Shown piece by piece: positions 35,253 to 53,853 of a stretch of 64,000 bases of DNA (position 1 is the stretch's first letter; each line of letters starts with the position of its first letter). Below the pieces are notes generated by a model that saw nothing but the letters and a program-made list of their open reading frames with translations, was not told where the DNA came from and did not search any database. The position numbers and the translations under genes are program-made. The stretch comes from Acytostelium subglobosum LB1. Lineage: Eukaryota; Evosea; Eumycetozoa; Acytosteliales; Acytosteliaceae. The DNA lies in NCBI RefSeq assembly GCF_000787575.1, contig NW_012236532.1:746612-810611 (forward strand), given 5' to 3'.

Positions 35253-38200
35253 CTACTTCTTGATCGCAGCGTCCTTCTTCCTAAAGAAGTTCCTGCTTAA
35301 AGTGTTGAATCCAGTGATGGCAGCATTTCCTTTCTTTTTGTCATCCATTGAATGCTTTCCAAGTGTACCATTGATGTTACCACTACTACTGCTACTGCTG
35401 CTGCTGCTGCCACCCTCCATTGAAGGATCCACCATCATATAGTTGTTATCAAATTCCAACATACTCTTTGGACCTCCACCGCTCATCGTCGAATGTCCAC
35501 CATTGGACACCAGCTGTTGTTGCGACATGGTTGGACGACGCAGCGAGATGGACGCTGTGTGACTGCGATATGGTACCAATGGATGCTTTGCCCTGAACAG
35601 GGCGGCGCGCTCCTCGATCTGCTTTTCGAATGCCAGACGTATGAAGTTCTCTTCGTTCTCGTAGCACTCAGTCTCGGAGAGAGGGAAGTAGATCTGCCTC
35701 CACACCTTCATCTTCTTGATGGAGCAGTCGGGGAAGATGACGTCGCGGTCGTCCGAAGGCTGGTACAGTGGGTTGAGGTAGCTAGCGATCGCCTGGTCCA
35801 TCTCCATCCACAGACTGATCGTCTTGCCGTATGAGTGCGCCATGATTCGCTCGCGCTCGCAGTTGAACAGGAAGTTGCCGTACCTGCCGCTGTACACGTG
35901 CGTGTAGATCGTGCGCAGGAAGTGCGAGTTGAACTCAAACTTGTTGGGATACTGATTAATGATCTGGTAGACGGCCTCGAGGAACTGGATAAAGACGGGC
36001 GATCGCTCGTCCTCATCCTTGCCATAGACCATTCCGCAGCGATGCGCAAACTTGTGTCCGAACGACAGCCACTCCTTCTCGATCAGCACCTGGAAACCGC
36101 GGATTGTGCGGTAGTATGGGTCCAGGAAGATCTCTGCCAGGCCCACCAGTTGACTCGTGCGGTCCCAGCCGTCGGAGCAATGCACCAGCACATTGGAGTG
36201 ATTGATGTGGATCAGCTTGGCGATGCGAACTGCGCCAACCAGGATCAGCTTGAGGTGGTGGAACCATCCCGATGACTCTAGTGTGGCAAACCAGTTGTCC
36301 TCCTTATTGATGCTGGACTCGACAGCCTCACGTAGCTTCAGCAGTGACGTGCGCATCACACATGTATGTTGGCAATGTCCATGAACTCAATCTCACAGTT
36401 TGGATAGTTGGTCATGATCTCCCATCCTGCACCCTTAGCCCTGTTGCCCACGGCGTTGGCATAGGGTCTCGCGTCTATAATATACAAAGTCTTCTCGCTG
36501 CCACTCTTCTTGCCGTCCATGGTCGACCCCGTAGCGTGGACCATCGTCGACGAGCTTGGCGCTGCGCTGCTCGTTGTGGCGGCGACGGCGGTGAGACGGA
36601 TGGCGTTCACCAGTTGCTCGTCCTCCTCGCATCTGTTTCTGCCAATGCCCACACGAGGTTGACTGCAACGTGTGATTGATGTCTTGTTGCTCCAGTGGCG
36701 GTAGGAGAGCGCAGGTATCCTGCCCTTGGATCGGAAGTTGGCCACTGCCTTGAGCTGCTCGTCCGAGATGGTGTCTGGCACGACTAGCAGCGAGGGGTAC
36801 GTCTCGCAAATAAAGTGCGTGCTGTTGATATGTGTGTACTTCCAGTCGGGCGAGGGGATGCCCATACGGGCAAACTCGTCCTTGGGGTCGTAGATGTTCC
36901 AGCCAAGGTTGGTCACCTCGTTCTGAGTGTACTCTGCCTTGTACAAGAAGCAGAACAACGATGTGGCGATTGTGTTCTCCACGCACTTGCGAACATCCTT
37001 CAGAGAGTTGCTCGACTTGTCGAATGACAATGAGATTGTTCTTGCATCCTTGCACAAGAAGTTCAATCTATACGAGAATGAGTTGCCAACAGACTTCTTC
37101 TTTCCAGACTTGTCCATCTTTTGGATCGAGTGCAAACTGAATGATTTCTGGATTTGAGTGTAAGTTTGAGTTTGAGTTTGAGTTTGAACGATTGGAAATG
37201 ATTCCATGGATGGTACATACTTTGAATAGACTGTTTTGATGAACTCCATTGAATATGATCTGGTAGTTTGTGATGAAGCAGGTGCCTGGAACATACTCCT
37301 CTTCGTTGGTGGATACTGTTGGGGCGGTATTGTTATCGCGTGGAGATGTCAGACTGCCAAATCCATGTGAGTTGGAAGTGCCATGTGTTCCTGATGCCAA
37401 CTGTGTGGTCACGTTGTCGTAGAGATGGTAGCGACACTCAACCTTGAACAAGATCTTCTCACCATCACACAACACCACCGAGTCTGGCAGTGACAGTGTC
37501 CTTATACTATTGAGCTGATTCCTAATATTCCTTATGATCTCGCCATAACTAACTGCTGTGGGCACTGATGTCTCCTGCGCCAACTGTCTCTTCATCAACA
37601 GCACCTTATTCCTAATATTGTCCAGACATTGCTGCAGCACAGTATGCAGCGAATCGATGCTGTTTACCGAGCGTTCGGTGGCTGGGATGAGGAAGTTAAG
37701 GTTAGATTATGGGTTCGCGAGCCTGACTATCCGGGCTTGCTTACCTTTGGACTTCCTCTTGGTGTGCACTGACTTGGAGTGAATGATCTTGATGAGCTCG
37801 GACGCAGAGTCGAGCTTCTCGGATGCACCAGCTGAGCCTGTGGATGTGGATGGCTGGGAAAAGTCGATGATATCGATGGGCTCCAACATGCGCTCAATGT
37901 CCACGAGTGACTCAGAGATCTTCATGATGTCCTTGAATGATTGATGGAACTGCTTCTCGCGCTTCATCTCGCTGATCTTGAATATAATGTTGTCAATTGT
38001 CTTTGTTGTGATGTCTTTGAGTTTATCAAGTTTCTCATCGGGTGCCATCATCAGTGACGATGATGATGTGGACGATGGTGTGCCTGAGCCCAGTTGCGCA
38101 CTACCATTAGCCAATGACACCAAATTACTCAGACTATTACTGCTACTCATTGTTGGAGTTGTGGATAGTGCCGGTGTCGATGTGTTTGATAGTGGCGTGC

Positions 38201-38525
38201 GAGGTGCAGGCGTCGATGGAAGCGAAGGCGAATGTGAAGCCGAGGTCGAGGGCGATGTTGAACCTGTTGTACCCATGCTGCTGCTGGATGTCTGTGACGT
38301 GGAGTGTGAAGTGGCCATTGGTTTGGATGTGGGATGCAGGGGCGGTGATCGGGTGGGTGGAGAAGATGTATTTGGCGAAGCAGAGGTCGTGCCAGGTGAG
38401 GAAGCACCTGACTTTGTGACGGGTGGTCCCTGGGGCTTGGGTGGGGGTGGCGACGACTGTGAAGTATTATTATTGTTGTTGTTGGACAACAACGATGTTT
38501 GAGGTGGCGGCAGTCTGGAAGTCAT
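35253..38525 (-). CDS. Myotubularin-family phosphoinositide 3-phosphatase, one frame break
   Basis: Exons 38525-37745, 37681-37221 and 37147-35253 give about 1044 residues. The first ~170 residues are Pro/Ser/Thr-rich, followed by a predicted helical region. A GRAM/PH-like part (VVLCDGEKILFKVECRYHLY) comes next, then the myotubularin phosphatase: GRIPALSYRHWSNKTSITRC, TLYIIDARPYANAVGNRAKG, and the active site VHCSDGWDRTSQ with Cys-x5-Arg intact. The enzyme removes the 3-phosphate from PI3P and PI(3,5)P2 on endosomes. In exon 3 the frame breaks at about 36360, where CATGTGTGATGCGC stands and the family needs IHVMR. The break is exactly two extra bases in a TG dinucleotide, so a sequencing slip is likely. 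The C-terminal tail is Ser/Gly-rich and ends KKDAAIKK. Confidence 0.88.
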
Positions 38526-44704: not shown

Positions 44705-47081
44705 TTATTTCTTCTTCTTCTTGCTGCCACCATCGATGGCTGGTGCTTTAAATGCATTGTCGTCCCATAGCTTGACTGGGGAGTGGCCTCCAGGTGCAAC
44801 TGGTGTGACAGCAGCGCCAGCATTTGGTGTCTTGGCATCGCGTCCTGTCTTTGATTTCTTCTTTGGCTGTTCCTCAGTCTTGATCTTGGGCTCGACTTTA
44901 AATGCTGGCTTGACTTGTTCGATAGCCTTGGGCTTGGCCTTGGCCTGTGTAGGGGTCTTGGTCGTAGGCTTGGGCTTGGTCATGGACTTGGATGCTGTCT
45001 TTCCTTTTACAGTACTCTTGGGCTGCGTAGCCTTTTTGGGTACTTTGGTCTTGTTCGTAGTTGTTGTTGTTGCCTTAGCATTATGTTTGGCAGCTTGTGA
45101 TTGTGATGTTGATGTTGATGTTGATTGATATTTATGATTCGGTTGATGTTGATGATGGAACTTTGGATCAATGTCGATTGGTGGAAGTGGCAATCTGGCT
45201 TCGATCGGATTGATTGGCGTTGGATTGATCTTCTCGAAACAGGCAACAAAGAATCCAATTGTGTTGTCGCTTGCTGGTGACATTCTCAAACAATACTCGC
45301 TGTTCTTGAACAATGACAATCCCCTACTCTTATTCCAATGTGGCAATATGTTTGCCAGTCTCCACTTCTCTCCATCACAATTCAGCTCGTCCAGTGCCCT
45401 TTTCACAACATCCTCATTCTCAACCTGATGTACCGAGCATGTTGAGTACACTACTCTCTTCACACATGGGACTTGAATAGCGTGGCGGGGAGTGAGTTAG
45501 TTCATCAGTCTGATTGCTTGATTGAACGAATGGGTGAGTTGGCCAGCTAGCCTGTATACATACATTGGAATGCATGCATTATGATTGAGAATTGGAAGTC
45601 AGCCAGCAGGGCCAGCCTTTGGGACTCGTCCATGACCTCAACCTCTTCTTCATCTTTGGAAGCATCGCCAGACTTGTCCTTTGAAGCATCTTTGCCTTTA
45701 GATTTGCTCTGTTTCATCTCTTCCAACTTGCGCTTCATTGCTTGTTCCTTCTTCTCTTTCCTCGTTGGTTTCTTTGCATCCTTGTCCAAGGTGTTGGTCG
45801 ATTGCTTCTTGCTCCCTCCACCGCCATTCTTCTTTGCCTGCTCGCCCTTCTCCCTGATCAAATCTTCAATATCATCATTCTCTTCAGCTGTGGCTGGTGC
45901 AGATCCACCAGTGGTCGATGCCAACAAATGATCCAAACGATTGACGATACCAGATCCCGAGCATGATGGATCGCACAAGACATACTCCACATTCTTAAAC
46001 CTTGGATCTGAGTGATCCAAGTCAAAGAAACTCTTGTTCAATGGCTGAATGTCTAATGTGTCGCGAGGTTGTGGCGGGTCAGTGATTGATCGATTGATTG
46101 ATTGATTGATGGGATCATCCCATCCCATCCCCAAGCCAGTACAAACACATACTGTTACATCGCGACCTTCCTGTGAGCTTGACCAATGTGCCCATGCGCT
46201 TGGCATCTTTCTCGATGGCGTAGATCCTGCCTGTGTTCTTCATGAGTGCACTTAGGAGAGATGTCTTGTTTCCTGGTGCCGAGCATGAGTCGATGGCCAG
46301 CGTATTCTCGGGAGGATTGAGAACAAAGGCTGGCAGACAACTAGCCTTGTCCTGAAGGATGATGTGTCCACTCAGCAGAAGTGGATGATCGTGCAAGTCG
46401 ACGTTTGGCGCGAATACCAATATTGAGGGAAAGTCCTGGTCTTGGAAGAAGGTCTTGGCGTCCACGCCATAGTCCAGCTTGGTGCAATATGTGTTGGCCG
46501 TGTTGAGCGTGTACGCTTCATTCTTGACAAAGTGATCGATGACATGTTGTGGTTGACAGACATTGGTATTGACACGGACATAGCGTGGCAGTAGTATAGG
46601 GTTGCGTATCGACTCTGGCAACAAGTCAACATTATTGGCCACCTGTCTCCTTATCTTTAATCTTGCCAAAGCAGCAGACAATTGAACTTTATAAGCCATT
46701 ACCGACTTCTTAGCATGACCTCCACCCTTTATCGATTGATTCGCTCCAAACATCAACTCATACAGCATCACTAGCAACAAACTATATCCAATCGTCTTGT
46801 CATCCTTCAATCCCTGTACAGTTGTTAACAACTCATCAATTGTATCTTTATCTAAGAGTGAGTGAAAGAGTAAGTATGAGTAAGTATGATTGATTGATTG
46901 GATGAGTGATATGTATGTGTAAGTATGTTGACTTACACTTTAGTGTCTCGCAAACTAGAGCGTAGGCAGTCTTGCTGTTTGACTCTGAGTTTGAGGATTG
47001 GAAGGATAGTCCTTTGATGCTACCCTTCTTCTGAAGTAGCTTATCAATAACACCTGCTGCCTGTCTATAATAGTCACACAT
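44705..47081 (-). CDS. nsun5: NSUN5-like 28S/25S rRNA (cytosine-C5) methyltransferase
   Basis: Exons 47081-46937, 46851-46153, 46052-45564 and 45471-44705 join in frame to 699 residues. The SAM-dependent NOL1/NOP2/Sun core is complete: LAIDSCSAPGNKTSLLSALM, IYAIEKDAKRMGTLVKL, DPSCSGSG and the catalytic motif YSTCSVHQVENEDVV. The order and the DPSCSGSG signature fit NSUN5/Rcm1, which methylates one cytosine in large-subunit rRNA. Family members are about 430-470 residues. Here a Lys/Glu-rich insert (about residues 325-425) splits the core after DPSCSGSG, and a tail of about 150 residues is very Lys/Thr/Pro-rich, ending GGSKKKKK. Both suggest nucleolar retention and RNA contact. The introns are rich in CAAT/CACT repeats on the coding strand. 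Confidence 0.9.
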
Positions 47082-49181: not shown

Positions 49182-50095
49182 ATTGTTATTATAATTATTA
49201 TACTATTATTATAAATATATATATATATGAATATTAATATATGGATAATGGAATATATGGATTGTGGATTGTGGATATTGATCAATCAAACAATCGTCTG
49301 GTTGTTGTCAATTTCAAGACGATCACTTGGATGATATTTATGGTGATGTTGATGATGATGATGATGATGTTGATGATGTTGATATACTGATGTGTTGACA
49401 ATGATCTACAACCAATACTATTAATGGATATCTGTGTCTAGTACTACAACAATAAACATATACAATATAAGTTCAATTTATGTATGTGTATGAGTGTATG
49501 AGATTGTAGTAGTATCTAATGATGGTGTTGACACTGACTGAACAATCAATCAATTAATCTCACAGAGTGGGTTCATTTAGACAACTAGTTGTTGTTAACA
49601 TTACATTCAATCTCGGGCTCAATAGACACACAACACACTCATTGATTGATTGATTACCCAGTCAAACCATCAAGCAGTGCTCCATCATTCAACCACTCAA
49701 CAACATTTATCATATCTAACTCGCGATTAAGATAATTGCCCATTCATTATTTCATTCATTATAACCAAAGTAAGAAGAAACATCCAATTTCAAGACCCAA
49801 GGACCCAGGGACTATGATGTTACCATCATCATTATGTTGATCACTCTATCTTGAACTTCGCTATAGAATACTAGATTGTTAGTACAATGATAATTACCTA
49901 TTATCTGTATCATTCAATCAATGTTATGATTAATGGGGAACTATTTAGTGCGAGGGTATTGTCCCCCCTCAAACATCTTGTGTTGAGAATCTTGATTTGA
50001 TAGTCAACTCATCATTCATTCAATCAACTTCATTCATTCACCTAAATCAATTTTGTTATATTTATACATTATATTATATATACTTGTTGTTCACA
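49182..50095. other. Intergenic region between divergent genes
   Basis: About 910 bp, with a (GATGATGTT)-type repeat near 49340-49380 and a TATA-rich start. No gene-like frame or structured RNA was seen. It presumably holds the MinE promoter. Confidence 0.4.
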
Positions 50096-50522
50096 ATGTC
50101 TCTTTCATCATTCAGACAGATCATATCAAAGGTGTTCAATCACACCTCACAGCAACAGGTCACAGCCAACATTGCCAAGGAGCGTATGCAGAGCTTCCTT
50201 CGTGATCAACGTGGTGTCCGTTCACTCAAAGATGAGAACCTCAATCAGATAAAGGGAGAGGTGCTGCAAGTTGTATCTGTATGTCATTCAATCATTCATT
50301 CATTCATACATCGGTTGACATGCTCTAACAATGTATCAATCAAACAATGAATAGAAATATTGGAAGGTCAATATGAATGATGTTACATTCTCATTTAGAA
50401 AGAGCGATGATAGGAGCGACTTGGACGTGTTTGAGATGCAGGTCACATTGCCATCAGATCTGTTTGCTTCACCTGTCACTGCAACTGCATCATCACCTCA
50501 ATCACAAAAGTTAACACTTTAA
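50096..50522 (+). CDS. minE: MinE, mitochondrial division-site topological factor
   Basis: Exons 50096-50278 and 50355-50522 join in frame to 116 residues. The core aligns along the whole length of bacterial MinE: TANIAKERMQSFLRDQRG (MinD-binding helix; E. coli has TANIAKERLQ), then IKGEVLQVVSKYWKVNMNDV and DVFEMQVTLPSDLF (dimer-forming beta region). A 25-residue leader (SLSSFRQIISKVFNHTSQQQ) is basic and amphipathic, as for a mitochondrial targeting signal. In bacteria MinE drives MinCD oscillation, which places the FtsZ ring mid-cell. Bacterial-type Min and FtsZ proteins are known in mitochondria of some protists, and dictyostelids keep mitochondrial FtsZ. The spliceosomal intron shows this is a nuclear gene, not contamination. 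No MinC or MinD is in the window. Confidence 0.88.
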
Positions 50523-50951: not shown

Positions 50952-51750
50952 TTAGGATTGGCTCGACGCTGGCTGAGGTGTTGTGGTAGTGGCGGTGGCA
51001 GCTGGTGGAACAACAGCAGCAGTAGTAGTAGCAGCTTGTTGCTGTGCCTGCTGTGGCTGTTGTGGCTGCTGTTGTTGCTGTGGCTTAATTGGCAACAAAG
51101 CACTCTTATCGATATTCTTTATCTTTGTCTCCAACCTCTTTGTATATTCATCAATCAACTGAACAGTCTTCTCGAGATCGCCTACATTCTTATCGAGCTC
51201 ATCAATCTTGTCCAAGTATGGCATGAACTCCTCGTCTAATCATCGACAACAACATGTCAGTAAGTAATTCAATTCGTTTGAATATCGTCAATCACACGAG
51301 TCTTGCATGCTTACACTTCTGCTTCAGGTCGCCCATGTACAGGGTCAGACCCTTGGTGATCTCATGCATATCCTTGTACTTGGCAGATGTAACATCATTC
51401 ATCTGAATCAACAAGTTGTAGTCGGCAACAGTAGCTACATCATTGATGATGATTGATGAGATGAATGAGTGAGTGAGTCGAATGATTGATTGATTGAATG
51501 AATGAATGAGCATATACATACCTGATAGCTCTGAACTTAGATACTTGGCAACCTTTGTAAACATCTCTGATGTGGCATCCTGGAGATCAGCCTGTGGAGG
51601 CAGGTTGGGAGTGATGATATCATTGGCAGCCTTTTGTTGATTAGTAGTATCTTGTCCAGTGCTACTATTCAATGATGAAGTGTTTGCCGATGCTGTCGAA
51701 GAAGTCGATGATGACAATATATTGCTGCTTGCTGGTATCCTACTCTCCAT
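50952..51750 (-). CDS. bloc1s2: BLOC-1 subunit 2 (BLOS2)
   Basis: Exons 51750-51522, 51434-51315 and 51235-50952 join in frame to 210 residues. The BLOC1S2 helical core fits well: DLQDATSEMFTKVAKYLSSE, VADYNLLIQMNDVTSAKYKD, and PYLDKIDELDKNVGDLEKTV, then YTKRLETKIKNI. BLOC-1 and the related BORC complex share this subunit and work in endosome-to-lysosome traffic and lysosome positioning. The N-terminus (residues 1-50) is Ser/Thr-rich, and the C-terminus adds a Gln/Ala/Pro/Thr tail (PQQPQQAQQQAATTT) absent from animal proteins. Introns hold CATT/CAAT arrays on the coding strand. Confidence 0.88.
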
Positions 51751-51950: not shown

Positions 51951-53853
51951 ATGCAGAAGCTTAACACGGTGATTGACACCTTGGTACCTTCACAATCATT
52001 GGTTGGCCGTGCCACATCCGATAACGATCAACCTACACCAGGTTACATGTTTGTTGACCTTCAGAGTATGTTGTTGATGTCATATGAATGATCGAATGAA
52101 TGATACTAACAAGATAGATTGATTGATATATAGATGAATCCAATCAGTCGGTTGAGAAATGTCAACAGATATTATCACAATTGTTGAATCGTTTGAAGAA
52201 GGACTCACCTGTTGTCAAGCTGAAGTGTCTAAAGTGCATGAAACACTTGGTACTCAAGGGTAGTGCAGTGTTCAAACAAGATTTATCAACATGTTCAGAT
52301 CATCTACAACAATGTACAAGTATGAATCTGTTGACCAATCAATCCATTCATCAATCACTCACACATCATTGCCCTCACTAGATTATAGAGGTCAATTGGA
52401 CCAATTCCATGGAGATGCTCCATATGCTGCAGTAAGGGAGGAGGCCAACAAGTTATTGAACTTGTTGTTTCAATTCACATCGACTCCTACTCCTCATCCA
52501 TCATCATCATCATTATCATTCACACAGACGCCACAGACTGTGGTTCAAGTCCAACCGAGGACTCATCAGCAACAACAAAGCAATGGCAACACAACATCAT
52601 CAACATCATCATCATCATCATCAAACAACCGAGTTATAGTTGGGTTTGGATCAAATGGATCAATGACAAATGCACCATTGCCACCTCAATCAAAGTTGGA
52701 CAAGGTTGTAGAGAAGATTGGCGCGGTCACTGATAAGCTACACGGCAATCACAATAATTCAACAAGACGACCAACATTGAATGATGTTGACTCACGACCA
52801 TCCATTCCAGTGCGTGACGGCACACATCTAATGGGTTCATCACCATCATCATTATCAGACCATGATGATGTTCATAGTGCACCACAACAAGACATTATTG
52901 ATGAGATCATTGGCAATCATACTTCAACTACATTATCTTCTACATCAATTGCAAGATTCATTCAATATTGGAATGAAGTTGGACAACAACAACAACAACA
53001 ACAACAACTGGTGATACTCGATCAACTGGATGCCAAGACACAGAGCAAACATTGGCAGATCAAACAAAAGACATTACAACTGATAGAAACACTGATCAAT
53101 GATGGACAACAACAAACTTGCACAATGTACTTTCAACAACATTCACAATCTCTCATCAACTTATCGACATCATTACACAAGTCCATCCGAGAGAAATCCA
53201 AACAAATCCTCAAGATACTTGGCATCGAGATGCCCATCGTCCTGCCCACGACCAGCAGCAATAACACCAGCGGCGACAGTAGTCCAATCATGGTACCTTC
53301 TCCGCCAATCGATCACAAGAACAACATGTTTGAATTTGACGAGCATCCATCTTCGTCAAGCCCTGGCCGTGGCATTGGCGTTGGCCTTGGGCTTGGCTCA
53401 CATACCCCTCCTCCAACATCTCCTGGAATGTTTGGAGGACTTTCAGTCGTCAATGTAACCAAGACAACCTCACACAATCACACGTTATCCCCAACAACAT
53501 CATCCACAACCACCACAAACACTACATCGTCCAGACATCGATCGTACAACAACAACAACAATAATATCCTGGATCTTGATCTTGATCCACTGTACATTGG
53601 CAATGGTACATCATCGCAGCGCACCATTAACAACAACAAACATAACATAGTTAACTATGACCTATTACTTGGCGAATCATTCGCCATTGGTGATTCCATT
53701 ATACTTCCAAACAACAACACCATTTCGCCCAACCCGATCACAATTTGCGAGGACAACAACAACAAACAATCGACCAATCGTCATGTCATCGTTGGCACTG
53801 TTGACGACCCATTCAAGAACCTTACCACATACGCCGAGAATAAACTGAGTTGA
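51951..53853 (+). CDS. Tepsin-like AP-4 accessory protein (ENTH/VHS-like)
   Basis: Exons 51951-52065, 52134-52319 and 52382-53853 join in frame to 590 residues. The ENTH-like domain (residues 1-130) reads ATSDNDQPTPGYMFVDLQ, KKDSPVVKLKCLKCMKHLVL and QLDQFHGDAPYAAVREEANK, in the order found in tepsin. A second helical domain (about residues 280-375: FIQYWNEVG, KHWQIKQKTLQLIETLINDG, SIREKSKQILKILGIEM) matches the second VHS/ENTH-like domain of tepsin. Between and after are disordered Ser/Asn/Pro-rich segments with Gln runs. Tepsin binds the AP-4 adaptor on trans-Golgi vesicles. Animal AP-4-binding peptides were not found by eye. Epsin-like proteins are the alternative. Confidence 0.75.

Follow-up and report, generated by a model that had tools for sequence, protein, structure and literature searches.

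A nuclear, intron-containing MinE gene in Acytostelium subglobosum, part of a Min-FtsZ gene set with a probable role in the mitochondrion

We analysed a 64,000-nucleotide window of contig NW_012236532.1 from Acytostelium subglobosum LB1 (positions 746,612 to 810,611 of the forward strand), which carries a two-exon MinE gene (Table 1). The gene begins with an ATG at 50096 and its spliced product is 116 aa long. The contig spans 1.34 Mb and eukaryotic genes lie close to MinE, with an NSUN5-type RNA methyltransferase upstream and BLOC1S2 as the next gene downstream. An Rfam scan of the window found nothing at gathering score. The first-pass annotation had placed the window in a dictyostelid genome, and repeats in the assembly agree with this: the Dicty_CTDC repeat, a marker of dictyostelids, had 298 candidates in the genome, of which 150 were scored and all 150 matched, and none was found in 14 prokaryote control genomes.

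Table 1. Features of the MinE locus and of related genes elsewhere in the A. subglobosum assembly.
Feature	Location	Strand	Description
MinE exon 1	window 50096..50278	+	61 codons, phase 0 (sequence, splice-pair scan and Pfam match); encodes MSLSSFRQIISKVFNHTSQQQV (N-terminal segment), TANIAKERMQSFLRDQRG (helix contacting MinD) and the beginning of the dimer domain
MinE leader	window 50096..50161	+	codons 1-22; compared with bacterial MinE N-termini
MinE intron	window 50279..50354	+	76 bp, GT-AG, phase 0, GTATGT...AATAG; predicted from the protein match
MinE exon 2	window 50355..50522	+	rest of the dimer domain (through VTLPSD), C-terminal tail of ~20 residues, stop
NSUN5-type RNA methyltransferase ORF	window 46115-46831	minus	some 3 kb upstream of MinE
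BLOC1S2	window 50952-51750	minus	two exon pieces; next downstream of MinE, convergent
520-aa ORF	window 52291-53853	plus	rich in low-complexity stretches; ENTH match slightly below cut-off
MinD	contig C40, about 37323-38474	+	three exons, 327 aa
MinC	contig C46		open models obtained with several nearby GT-AG pairs; one scanned (345 aa)
FtsZ, one of two genes	C51:301474-302464	minus	two blocks
Dynamin-domain match cluster	contig C25, about 298846-373541		open frames of about 650-990 aa

The MinE gene is apparently spliced, judging from the match to the protein family. We paired GT donors between 50200 and 50349 with AG acceptors up to 50449 and listed the 15 longest products; among these, the pair 50279/50354 restores the MinE core as QVVS/KYWKV (the slash marks the join), which bears out the earlier claim that the intron splits the conserved core. 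Two other pairs with longer frames (130 and 118 aa) were rejected, as they place intron-like residues where KYWKV belongs. The unspliced frame meets a stop at 50350, within the intron, and GC content is 0.32 in the intron versus 0.42 in the exons. An upstream start or exon that would lengthen the leader was also rejected, because the frame, followed upstream to the stop that ends at 49948, contains no ATG and no Lys or Arg codon, and the AG nearest to the start on that side, a potential acceptor, ends at 50003.

The spliced product matches the Pfam MinE family (PF03776) with an E-value of 1.6e-15 and 57.2 bits (cut-off 25), across profile positions 1-68 of 68, confirming both the initial call of a nuclear, intron-containing MinE and its reported end-to-end alignment with bacterial MinE. 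Exon 1 alone scored 29.5 bits over profile positions 1-37, so about half of the score comes from exon 2. Scores against the NCBIfam models were slightly below the cut-off for TIGR01215 (minE; 48.9 bits, cut-off 49.3) and NF001422 (54.2 bits, cut-off 58), and 49.3 bits against a cut-off of 108 for NF010595. The best match among solved structures was 3r9j (E 8e-8), which we take to be E. coli MinE, followed by 6u6q, 2kxo (presumably Neisseria MinE) and 6u6p. This gene was the sole MinE match in the 30.7-Mb, 56-contig genome assembly at E-values up to 10, and a search of viral contigs for MinE gave 13 pattern matches, none of which was confirmed.

We compared the protein with 51 bacterial MinE rows, among which a single residue reaches 60% of rows or more in 37 aligned columns. 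The Acytostelium protein carries the commonest bacterial residue in 19 of these 37 well-conserved columns and differs in 18. The contact helix retains A24, A27, K28, E29, R30 and Q32; R30 agrees with all 51 bacterial rows, and A24, A27 and K28 agree with 50, 49 and 49 of them, respectively. In bacterial MinE this helix binds MinD, and the invariant arginine has a role there. Positions 31, 33 and 36-38 are unlike the commonest bacterial residue (M for L at 31, S for I at 33, D for H at 37), while the dimer core keeps KY and the last strand LP, each the commonest bacterial choice. Like bacterial MinE (3r9j, 2kxo), the protein has the TANIAKER contact helix, the dimer domain and an M-x-L-x-x-F start. 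It differs from bacterial MinE in being nuclear, with an intron inside the dimer domain; it also has about nine extra residues between the N-terminus and the contact helix and ends in a C-terminal tail some 20 residues long. Judged from its sequence, the gene in the window is a genuine nuclear MinE with an intron.

The first-pass annotation had also described a basic, amphipathic leader of mitochondrial type. A leader does exist, with 22 residues ahead of TANIAKER, a net charge of +2 and no acidic residues, but the N-termini of 48 bacterial MinEs (the 51 minus three without a clear start) look much the same, so the mitochondrial character does not stand on these features. The bacterial proteins have 9-22 residues ahead of the contact helix (median 13), a leader net charge of -1 to +5 whose median of +2 equals the Acytostelium value, and likewise no acidic residue in the leader in 12 of 48. 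The best 11-residue hydrophobic moment is 0.65 in Acytostelium MinE and 0.19-0.73 in bacteria, five of the 48 being as high, in a comparison that favours the Acytostelium protein because a longer leader offers more positions to try. M1, L3 and F6 each match the residue seen most often in bacteria at that position (44, 32 and 33 of 51), and S2 is also common at the same place; the likeness of M1, L3 and F6 covers few positions, was noticed after the fact and is suggestive only. The N-terminal helix of bacterial MinE binds membrane. The resemblance of the 48 bacterial leaders, together with the match at M1, L3 and F6, favours reading the leader as the native membrane-binding start of MinE, lengthened by an insertion of about nine residues, over reading it as an added presequence. 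It is possibly an import signal as well. Were it cleaved off as a presequence, the protein would lose the helix by which bacterial MinE binds membrane.

MinD and MinC had been predicted to lie elsewhere in the genome, and both were found there. MinD, whose absence would have counted against the MinE reading, scores 324.5 bits against TIGR01968, above the curated cut-off of 212.9. It has 57 residues ahead of the conserved core, with a net charge of +4 and no acidic residue in the first 30, and its C-terminal end, GLFSKMSKLFG, resembles bacterial MinD ends. In bacterial MinD this end has a membrane role. The Walker A motif reads KGGTGK, with T where V is found in 51 of 51 sampled bacterial MinDs. 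The one MinC splice model that was scanned exceeds the cut-offs for both domains (MinC_N 35.4 versus 27.3, MinC_C 99.8 versus 33.2) and for TIGR01222 (157.2 against 95.25), and its N-terminal stretch has a net charge of +6 over the first 68 residues with one acidic residue in the first 30. By sequence, MinD is a protein with a long added leader, and MinC is probably another. The suggested check for FtsZ returned two genes, on contigs C51 and C54. In the C51 gene the reading frame changes where its two blocks meet, without a gap long enough for an intron, probably through an assembly error or a frameshift. One genome thus holds the parts of a Min-FtsZ system, with MinE, MinD, MinC and each of the two FtsZs on a contig of its own, five in all. 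The genome also has at least 31 pieces matching the dynamin domain, so Min-FtsZ may be neither the only nor the chief division machinery. A cluster of such matches on contig C25 is probably a family expansion.

To place the Min genes, we searched bacterial genomes for MinD at E-values up to 1e-40 and found it in 18 of 190 alphaproteobacterial genomes, 50 of 114 gammaproteobacterial genomes (a set we take to be in the GTDB sense, beta included) as well as in 1 of 58 Myxococcota genomes; the centre genome, which had been picked for having MinD, is part of each count. The MinD tree held 52 rows. It took in every one of the 18 alpha rows, the top-scoring 24 of 50 gamma rows, 8 of a set of 17 loci (the other nine being near-duplicates) and the one Myxococcota row; as the gamma rows were picked by best score, the sample is biased towards those that resemble the query. 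The Min trees are unrooted and consist of proteobacterial rows, with the dictyostelid sequences as the sole eukaryotic ones; the 50 plasmid records listed out of 368 all bear proteobacterial names. Myxococcota was rejected as an outgroup, as MinD was found in only its centre genome and that row fell among the alphaproteobacteria. The row is the MinD of a MAG titled Anaeromyxobacter sp., and its position points to gene transfer or a mixed bin.

In the MinD tree the dictyostelid sequence forms a long branch on the beta/gamma side (95/90), with one gamma row weakly nearest (83/68). Forcing it together with the alpha rows, with the Myxococcota row on the alpha side, cost 5.0 log units and was not rejected (AU p 0.31). 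The joined MinCDE tree, built from the 45 of 51 bacterial rows with MinC in the locus (six were dropped), also places the dictyostelid on the beta/gamma side (split 98/96), and again the alpha grouping was not rejected (AU p 0.223). These trees thus neither show nor reject descent of the Min genes from the alphaproteobacterial endosymbiont. An FtsZ tree was built likewise, taking the top 20 alpha and the top 20 gamma rows by score. Neither FtsZ groups within the beta/gamma clade there (split 100/100), but both sit on very long branches flagged by the program, and holding them with beta/gamma was not rejected (AU p 0.337). The 208-aa block of the C51 FtsZ is 39-58% identical to alpha sequences (55 matches of 58 genomes) and 38-50% identical to gamma sequences (48 matches of 56 genomes). 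FtsZ leans to the alpha side, and the contrast with Min is likewise a lean and no result. It is conceivable, though we think it unlikely, that the Min genes came from a beta/gamma-type source and FtsZ from the endosymbiont, with MinE using its ancestral membrane-binding helix as an uncleaved import signal; if the Min genes did come from such a source, the mitochondrial division machine would be a mosaic.

Identity to the sampled rows is practically level for the best gamma (64%) and the best alpha MinD (63%) and reaches 36% for MinE. The closest rows are beta/gamma ones, as might be expected if a gene resembling MinE had recently been acquired from a bacterium or had entered the assembly as bacterial contamination. 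We regard this as very improbable: introns are predicted in MinE, MinD and MinC, MinE sits near NSUN5 and BLOC1S2 on its long contig, the Min and FtsZ genes are spread over five contigs, and the trees give a long branch with no starred bacterial sister. There was accordingly no sign of the recent bacterial donor that the first-pass annotation had named as a danger to its reading, the closest listed MinDs being 64% identical and the branch long.

A genuine MinE could instead be degenerate or repurposed, with FtsZ placement lost and mitochondrial division left to dynamins or other machinery, and the many dynamin-domain matches, the 18 of 37 well-conserved columns off the commonest residue and the unexplained frame change in one FtsZ of this assembly would fit such a state. 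Still, the contact helix is intact at the six positions listed above, MinD and MinC score above curated cut-offs, and PMC9409391 states that mitochondrial fission in D. discoideum does not rely on Drp1/dnm1-type dynamins, so that we consider loss of function quite unlikely. It is very likely, rather, that the gene encodes a true MinE and belongs to a complete Min-FtsZ gene set, encoded in the nucleus and most probably working inside the dictyostelid mitochondrion. For MinE, MinD, MinC and the two FtsZs, the assembly itself shows that they are present, how the genes are built and which domains they encode; a mitochondrial location is the most likely one given the leaders and published work on relatives, with the leaders in the putative role of import signals.

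Min proteins are, to our knowledge, kept by only some eukaryotes. Plants have plastid MinD and MinE, which resemble the present case in being nuclear Min genes with organelle leaders; unlike the dictyostelid proteins, they are located in the plastid and of cyanobacterial origin, and dictyostelids, as far as we know, have no plastid. Leger et al. 2015 (PNAS 112:10239) reportedly described FtsZ and Min in the mitochondria of diverse protists, amoebozoans included, and is said to have tested Dictyostelium purpureum proteins in yeast; the gene set of those protists, D. purpureum among them, is reportedly the same as the one found here, the comparison being by gene set and not by sequence. The surprise is therefore smaller than first stated: mitochondrial Min in amoebozoans has already been reported, and Acytostelium MinE is a well-supported further case. 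Leger et al. 2015 is cited in PMC8134430, PMC6871780 and PMC5377515. The same gene set, again compared without sequences, occurs in another mitochondriate protist, the jakobid Andalucia godoyi, where FtsZ1, FtsZ2, MinC, MinD and MinE are presented as a mitochondrial division system in PMC7050145, and the Min-FtsZ set is reported absent from diplonemids in PMC12699882. For D. discoideum, PMC9409391 suggests that mitochondrial fission as well as fusion may be controlled by FtsZs. According to its title, PMC7016976 deals with inhibition of mitochondrial dynamics by D. discoideum FszB, and a search of the portion available found no Min terms. Leger et al. 2015 aside, the literature passages surveyed contained no description of Min in dictyostelids.

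By analogy with the bacterial system, MinD-ATP would attach to the inner membrane by a C-terminal amphipathic helix and bring in MinC, which would block FtsZ assembly. MinE would then bind MinD by the TANIAKER helix, trigger ATP hydrolysis and strip MinD and MinC off the membrane, and the division ring would form away from MinD and MinC. As MinE and its partners MinD, MinC and two FtsZs occur in the same genome, mitochondria in this species may still place their division in the bacterial way. Dictyostelids are convenient laboratory organisms, and a genome with MinE, MinD, MinC and two FtsZs offers a place to look for Min patterns inside mitochondria.
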